Assembly: GCA_026393985.1 (NCBI GenBank)
Contig: JAPKZB010000090.1
Coordinates: 1 to 63,763 of the forward strand
Length of the DNA stretch: 63,763 nucleotides
Source of the DNA: Acidobacteriota bacterium
Lineage (GTDB): Bacteria; Acidobacteriota; Terriglobia; Bryobacterales; Bryobacteraceae
Reading direction: 5' to 3'
Made by a program: the position numbers and the translations under genes. Positions 51,300 through 51,978 of this stretch are shown here, one piece after another (within the stretch, counting starts at the first letter, position 1; each line of letters starts with the position of its first letter). The notes under the pieces were generated by a model that worked only from the letters and a program-made list of their open reading frames with translations, was not told the DNA's origin and ran no database searches.

Positions 51300-51896
51300 T
51301 TAGCGCCTGACGTAGCCATGCGCGGCCGTCCGCTGCCCGCCCGCGCGATGGGCTTCGTCTGAGAGCGCATGCACGCCGGTAGAGTCAATCCACCGGTTGT
51401 AGAAGTTGAACAGCGCGCAAACGGTGATGGCGTAGTAGATCTGCTCATCCGTCCAGCCGGCGGCAGAGAGCGGCGCCATGTCCGCCGCCGTAATCTCCGG
51501 CGACCGGCTGTTGACCTTATCGAGGAACCGGAAGAGCACCTTTTCGGATTCGGTCAGCGCCGACGTTTCAAAATCGGCCATCACCGCCTGCACCGCCTCT
51601 TCGCTGCCGAGCAAGGCTGCCGCGACCGCGGCATGCGACTTCAGTCAAAACGGGCAGTGATTGCGTGCCGAAGTAAAGGCGGCGATCAGCTCGCGCAGTC
51701 CCGGCGTGAGCGGCGCTTCGCCGTGCAGGATCTCGTGCGTGAACTTGGCCAGATGCTCGGTGGCGTGCGGCTTGAAGGCGAAAAGATGCCAGATCTGCGG
51801 GTACTCGCCCCCGCCCTTCGCCATGGCCGCGATGGCTTGGGCGTAGGGCCCCGGCGCCGGATTGGCTTCGACTGCGGGAAGAAACATCGGTTCCAT
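51300..51896 (-). CDS. AhpD/carboxymuconolactone-decarboxylase-family selenoprotein (TGA read as Sec)
   Basis: 198 residues if the in-frame TGA at 51647-51645 is read through as selenocysteine (residue 84). The frame is unchanged on both sides. The context is ARNHCPF-TGA-LKSHAAVAAALLGSEE. AhpD-like peroxidases have a redox CxxC followed by xxxxH at exactly this place, so the enzyme would carry CxxU (Cys81, Sec84) with His88. A hairpin just downstream fits a bacterial SECIS. Upstream part MEPMFLPAVEANPAPGPYAQ, IWHLFAFKPHATEHLAKFTHEILHG; downstream part SEKVLFRFLDKVN, WTDEQIYYAITVCALFNFYNRWIDSTGVHA, both typical of the family. It would reduce peroxides. The alternative, a nonsense-broken gene, is less likely. 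ATG at 51896 preferred over a TTG at 51935. Confidence 0.85.
51618..51633 (-). promoter_or_regulatory. SECIS-like hairpin for selenocysteine insertion
   Basis: On the transcript, UGCCGC-GGUC-GCGGCA forms a perfect 6-bp stem with a 4-base loop. The loop begins 18 bases after the UGA. In E. coli fdhF the essential loop GG lies 19-20 bases after UGA and the loop also contains GGUC. SelB binds this apical G-U element. Position, loop sequence and reading through coding sequence all match the bacterial SECIS rules. Confidence 0.7.
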
Positions 51897-51978
51897 GTTA
51901 GGGGCAGGGTAGTCCCGCCACCGCGCCGCCGGCAATAGTCGAAAGGAACTAGCAGGCTACAATGCCGGTAGGGAATCG

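Follow-up and report, generated by a model that had tools for sequence, protein, structure and literature searches.

An in-frame TGA codon within a bacterial reading frame may mark a gene that has decayed or a site at which selenocysteine (Sec) is inserted. This question is raised by a gene for an AhpD-like protein on a contig of an Acidobacteriota bacterium of the family Bryobacteraceae (JAPKZB010000090.1, assembly GCA_026393985.1). The whole stretch of DNA that we analysed, 63,763 nucleotides long, is called the window here. The TGA stands where the CxxC motif of such proteins has its second Cys, which turns the motif into CxxU, and a preliminary description of the sequence had proposed that the gene encodes a selenoprotein. 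This proposal is supported, and it is the comparative data that carry the case. The gene almost certainly encodes a selenoenzyme of the AhpD-like/CMD type (TIGR01926), in which UGA would be decoded as Sec through SelB and a downstream hairpin and a Cys-Pro-Phe-Sec pair would act in redox chemistry.

The gene and its protein family

With TGA read as Sec, the gene runs on the minus strand from an ATG at 51896-51894 to a TAA at 51302-51300 in a single frame, and its product carries the motif N-H-C-P-F-U-L-K-S-H (Table 1). The lack of a frameshift and the position of the TGA at the second catalytic residue agree with the preliminary description, from which the strand was missing. It had also anticipated that annotation would split the gene, and standard ORF calling indeed yields two ORFs, one of 96 aa (51645-51935) and one of 104 aa (51300-51614). 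On the same strand, 3' of the gene, lie genes for a histidine kinase, a response regulator and a VCBS/CRTAC-like protein (labels assigned by eye). When the window was scanned with Rfam at gathering thresholds, the only match was a tRNA, a tRNA-Glu.

Table 1. Positions of the gene and its predicted selenocysteine-related features in the window.
Feature	Position	Strand	Remarks
AhpD-like (TIGR01926, CMD) predicted selenoprotein gene	51300..51896	-	198 codons ahead of the stop, one UGA read as Sec; matches to TIGR01926, PF02627 and 2oyo
In-frame TGA, predicted Sec codon	51645..51647	-	Residue 84 from ATG 51896; second catalytic position of CxxU; TGA in 118/135 homologues
Putative SECIS hairpin U-GCCGC-GGUC-GCGGC-A	51618..51633	-	16 nt, 6 bp, inside the coding sequence; RNAalifold consensus
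Codon of the conserved first catalytic Cys	51654..51656	-	Residue 81; TGC/TGT in 133/135 homologues

We scored the protein, with C in place of U, against family models. It matched TIGR01926 ('peroxidase-related enzyme') with 103 bits (cut-off 81.8) and the Pfam family CMD (PF02627) with 39.7 bits (cut-off 23). The best solved relative was 2oyo, an 'uncharacterized peroxidase-related protein' (E = 1.1e-18). To our knowledge, no TIGR01926 protein has a proven substrate. Three other (seleno)protein models share an AhpD-like core with the protein and gave weak matches only, so that membership was rejected for NF041238 (AhpD_rel_CFYUT, 41.5 bits against a cut-off of 175), NF053654 (GroundWater_YciW, 25.8 against 310) and NF041047 (GSU3128 (seleno)protein, 18.9 against 110).

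An alignment of 38 homologues showed that Glu69 and His88 are invariant, while Cys81 and position 84 are common to at least 90% of the sequences. The Glu precedes Cys81 by 12 residues and the His follows it by 7. The available part of a study on M. tuberculosis AhpD gives Glu118, Cys130, His132, Cys133 and His137 as the relay residues (PMC3141380). Glu69, Cys81, U84 and His88 are spaced exactly as the Glu, Cys, Cys/Sec and His of this enzyme and of P. aeruginosa PA0269, although the protein described here belongs to a different subfamily, is predicted to have Sec in place of the second Cys, and has Phe at the position of the fifth relay residue (His132/Tyr50).

Conservation of the TGA codon and of the downstream hairpin

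We then collected 211 alignments to homologous loci (L027-L216) and removed 56 that were near-identical (no difference over the 300 bases surrounding the codon) as well as two that ended short of the codon. Among the 153 distinct homologues left, a sample drawn from the best matches and hence biased to close relatives, 135 scored at least 130 bits (referred to as close) and 18 were more distant. The codon at the Sec position of the close homologues was TGA in 118, TGC in 13, TGT in three and TCC (Ser) in one, and all 18 distant homologues had Cys. A random residue in close relatives had been named in the preliminary description as an observation that would speak against Sec, and we found TGA or a Cys codon in 134 of the 135.

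The nearest public records are L057 (99%) and L058 (94%). L057 is a separate MAG record in which the TGA is present and the gene body differs by seven synonymous changes and no amino acid. In comparisons of the window's gene with eight relatives (L058-L065), dN lay between 0.02 and 0.13 ahead of the TGA and between 0.03 and 0.20 behind it, being higher downstream in all eight, while dS ranged from 0.13 to 3.1 on both sides. These values indicate that both halves of the gene are under purifying selection and are maintained as protein. On the protein tree, which gives no direction of change, Sec and non-Sec were exchanged six times.

Some homologues depart from the common arrangement. The sole Ser homologue, a CxxS form (L152, G104:C4), comes from a genome that is 98% complete and has neither selA nor selB over cut-off, a possible case of Sec loss without a return to Cys. 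TxxC forms, with the first Cys changed to Thr and Cys at the second position, occur in L140 and L141 (G039), and Cys-type homologues in tandem with further AhpD-like genes in L139, L142 and L144.

The preliminary description had placed a hairpin, UGCCGC-GGUC-GCGGCA, 3' of the UGA. It is present: its loop is separated from the TGA by 17 nt and occupies positions +18 to +21, and its folding energy on its own is -10.0 kcal/mol. These values and its 6 bp fit the bacterial SECIS constraints seen in the available text of a 2026 review, which include a distance of 16-37 nt after UGA and a limit of -7.5 kcal/mol (PMC13188914). The folding energy of a 54-nt stretch was not beyond chance (z = -0.78, 43 of 200 shuffles folding as well), and we rejected it as sole evidence. 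For hairpin presence we used a strict rule of at least 5 bp closed by a tetraloop N1-G-[G/T]-N2 with N1 and N2 paired, 16-37 nt after the codon; this rule was simplified from the model in that available text (PMC13188914) and was written with the alignment already seen. As many as 4414 of 20,000 synonymous recodings of the window's gene (22%) satisfied it, and the mere presence of a hairpin was likewise rejected as sole evidence. The earlier argument, according to which a chance nonsense mutation is unlikely to come with a SECIS, is therefore weaker than stated, because about a fifth of the synonymous versions of this GC-rich, Ala-rich stretch form such a hairpin.

Among the homologues, the strict rule held for 108 of the 117 Sec genes scored, a further gene being excluded because it contains an N; in 105 of the 108 the hairpin lies at 17 nt. 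The rule held for only one of the 17 close Cys/Ser and none of the 18 distant Cys homologues, and for 447 of 2340 synonymous recodings across the family (19%). Nine Sec genes fail it, and three more pass only 34-35 nt after the TGA. A looser rule gave 113 of 117 Sec genes, two of 17 close Cys/Ser genes, one of 18 distant ones and 1340 of 2340 recodings (57%). The contrast with the Cys homologues is not purely synonymous, as they also differ in amino acids at the hairpin. An RNAalifold consensus of 116 distinct sequences recovered the same hairpin of six pairs; its covariation term was small (-0.16).

When the loop pair was included, 98.0% of cells were paired, a value reached in none of 500 shuffles. 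The covariation score, too, was above that of every one of the 500 shuffles, as was the measure of cells changed on both sides; the number of pairs with changes on both sides (44 of 500 shuffles as high) and that of further pair types (62 of 500) were not clearly above them. Sliding the partners by 1-3 columns lowered the paired cells to 28-82%. The covariation sits mainly in the loop pair, formed by positions 1 and 4, which is G-C in 66 sequences, A-U in 43, G-U in one and another combination in six. Hairpin conservation across the Sec genes together with this covariation is beyond chance, whereas the single hairpin in the window is within it.

In 106 of the 118 Sec genes, loop positions 1 and 4 are the third codon positions of Ala and Val. 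The codons at these 106 sites were GCG-GTC in 67 and GCA-GTT in 39, and the two mixed combinations, GCG-GTT and GCA-GTC, did not occur. Outside the SECIS of the same genes, GTG is the commonest Val codon (490/1014) and GCA the rarest Ala codon (187/2611), and 103 neighbouring Ala-Val pairs elsewhere included five GCA-GTC, five GCG-GTT, five GCG-GTC and one GCA-GTT. The loop type switches 18 times on the protein tree, a number that may be inflated since the tree was built by a quick method and 55 of its 149 inner branches have less than 80% support. The two loop types are nevertheless not two old lineages. We consider this synonymous covariation, as read from the alignments, to be the best evidence for a selenoprotein.

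According to a figure legend in the accessible part of the review, the published SECIS model contains a loop pair N1-N2 (PMC13188914). As we read it, the bacterial consensus there encloses one base more than the two, G-[G/U], of the loops described here (PMC13188914). Our partial survey of the literature, covering titles and the beginnings of abstracts, returned no study of covariation in bacterial SECIS loops, which is not to say that none is in print. Loops reading AGGU, CGGU, GGCC, AGCG or GGCG are found in L155, L159, L173 and L196-L201, in which Gly or Ala takes the place of Val; the last three loops have no G-[G/U] even though the TGA is retained.

That the TGA is a nonsense mutation or sequencing error in an ordinary Cys-type AhpD-like gene, leaving a truncated protein, might be suggested by the two short ORFs and by the ease with which such a hairpin arises in recodings, but we reject this as highly improbable, given that relatives conserve both the TGA and the half of the gene behind it, with dN far below dS and synonymous covariation in the loop.

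Selenocysteine machinery and spread of the gene

Decoding of UGA as Sec depends on dedicated machinery, and the preliminary description had proposed looking for it in the genome, naming a lack of selB or tRNA-Sec as an observation that would refute the proposal. All four components are present over cut-off in the window's genome, an assembly of 5.9 Mb in 96 contigs that is 97.9% complete, namely selA (456.5 bits, cut-off 267.9), selB (359.7, cut-off 242.25), selD (351.7, cut-off 125) and tRNA-Sec (70.1, cut-off 47), the last also reported by ARAGORN as tRNA-SeC (tca). Since this genome has several further tRNA-Sec matches of 39-45 bits beside the true one, we did not trust matches of about 40-49 bits.

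The selD gene of the same genome (L024, G000:C88:40012-40932) likewise contains an in-frame TGA, which is flanked as in AAGUASKL. It is followed after 19 nt by a hairpin, GUCCAA-AGGUU-UUGGAC, of -5.9 kcal/mol. SelD is called a candidate selenoprotein and no more, because this energy misses the limit of -7.5 kcal/mol given in the available text of the review (PMC13188914).

Could the UGA be read as Trp or another residue, or be subject to programmed read-through with two products? The identity of the residue as Sec rests on sequence, which leaves room for such a reading. It is nevertheless very improbable, as the genome holds the full Sec machinery, the SECIS-type hairpin is conserved, and the codon that replaces TGA encodes Cys, the usual counterpart of Sec, in 16 of the 17 close homologues without TGA.

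We next asked how widely the gene is spread. The protein was matched in 146 of 200 family genomes (own genome included), and 96 of the 200 have a copy with an in-frame TGA, the latter figure being a hand count of rows of at least 149 bits. Among 297 sampled genomes of the phylum, a match above 150 bits was obtained in ten (own included); in eight of the ten the match includes a single TGA, at a place that was not verified, and in the other two it includes no stop. Many distant AhpD-like matches in the phylum (23-35% identity) also contain one in-frame TGA, again unverified in place, and perhaps form a second widespread AhpD-like selenoprotein group. Some of 80 homologue records are labelled Gemmatimonadetes, Cyanobacteria, Proteobacteria or Chthoniobacterales, and a number of them may be mis-binned.

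Presence of selA over cut-off was recorded for 88 of the 96 genomes with the TGA gene and 76 of the 104 without it (Fisher p = 0.0008, uncorrected for kinship). The 36 family genomes below the selA cut-off were each identified from E-values, and their number matches the tally. Among the eight genomes that have the TGA gene without selA over cut-off, six have selB over cut-off. G040, which has the TGA gene and no selA over cut-off, has a tRNA-Sec of 63.4 bits, while G006, a genome 80% complete, has only a sub-cut-off selA, split selB pieces and a tRNA-Sec match of 46.6 bits. Conversely, in ten genomes the best copy of at least 130 bits is without any stop (G119, G036, G039, G132, G109, G167, G175, G055, G129 and G104). 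Eight of these have selA at E < 1e-138, so that loss of the machinery explains only the remaining two, G119 (Cys) and G104 (Ser). Both are without a selA and a selB above the cut-offs, which is what loss of the trait would predict, and the tRNA-Sec match in G119 (47.4 bits against a cut-off of 47) is not trusted. Across the family genomes, the machinery and the TGA gene are only loosely tied.

Possible function and relation to known selenoproteins

With the gene read as that of an AhpD-like selenoenzyme, the following mechanism can be proposed. SelB carrying Sec-tRNA(UCA) would bind the hairpin just 3' of the UGA through a loop with a central G-[G/U], and the UGA would then be decoded as selenocysteine. 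The resulting Cys-Pro-Phe-Sec redox pair would be held by the conserved Glu and His in a manner like the AhpD proton relay, and the selenol and the Cys would reduce a peroxide or a disulphide. The substrate may be an organic hydroperoxide or a thiol/disulphide partner.

The protein may also be a selenoprotein and yet not a peroxidase, acting as a thiol/selenol adaptor or as an enzyme on an organic acid handled together with a neighbouring MFS transporter. Downstream sequence of at least 450 nt was available for 79 public loci, and in 31 of these an MFS gene starts no more than 150 nt past the stop, its extrapolated start mostly overlapping the stop of the selenoprotein gene. A looser clustering of ORFs placed ORFs of 50 of 80 loci in the MFS group, so 31 may be an undercount. 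The best NCBIfam match of the MFS gene is the SfMCT L-lactate transporter, at 180.4 bits and below the cut-off of 320. The MFS gene lies further away in one more of the 79 loci. Against this alternative, it was not found downstream in 47 of them, and it also accompanies one of the five Cys/Ser loci whose flank is long enough. It stands between the selenoprotein gene and the kinase in L059, L061 and L062, and it was found neither beside the window's gene nor in the window's nearest relatives, L057 and L058, nor in L060, L063 and L064. The active-site residues, moreover, fit AhpD chemistry. We therefore regard a role other than that of a peroxidase as possible but the less probable of the two. 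A more specific proposal is that the selenoenzyme, found across one acidobacterial family, and a monocarboxylate-type MFS transporter act together, with selenium redox chemistry serving uptake or detoxification of an organic acid or of its peroxide and not general AhpC-type peroxide defence; this we consider rather unlikely.

AhpD-like selenoproteins of the CxxU type are already known, and the gene described here is a well-supported further example. They appear in the available parts of studies from 2005 and 2008 (PMC1088965, PMC2398784), and in the accessible text of the 2026 review TIGR01926 CxxU is among the selenoprotein families listed (PMC13188914). That family has the same model and motif as the window's gene, a likeness drawn from its description and not from sequence. 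The example listed there, MCB9421940.1, is labelled COG2128 in the available part of another source (PMC9312934); unlike it, the present gene occurs in Acidobacteriota relatives and has CPFU. For the phylum, partial texts report four selenoproteins in three families in Acidobacteria (PMC1794560) and three selenoproteins in one Acidobacteriota genome (PMC12013277). The titles and beginnings of abstracts that we surveyed name no such gene for Bryobacteraceae, which is not a claim that it is absent from print. What is new here is how widely the gene occurs within a single acidobacterial family, together with the covariation of its SECIS loop.

A gene that plain ORF calling cuts in two is easily missed, and this one encodes a predicted selenoenzyme found in 96 of the 200 family genomes sampled. 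The set of Sec and Cys homologues offers ready material for studying the gain and loss of Sec. The 67/39/0/0 distribution of codon pairs at the loop, in turn, constitutes natural genetic evidence that the two bases flanking the loop of this SECIS act as a pair.
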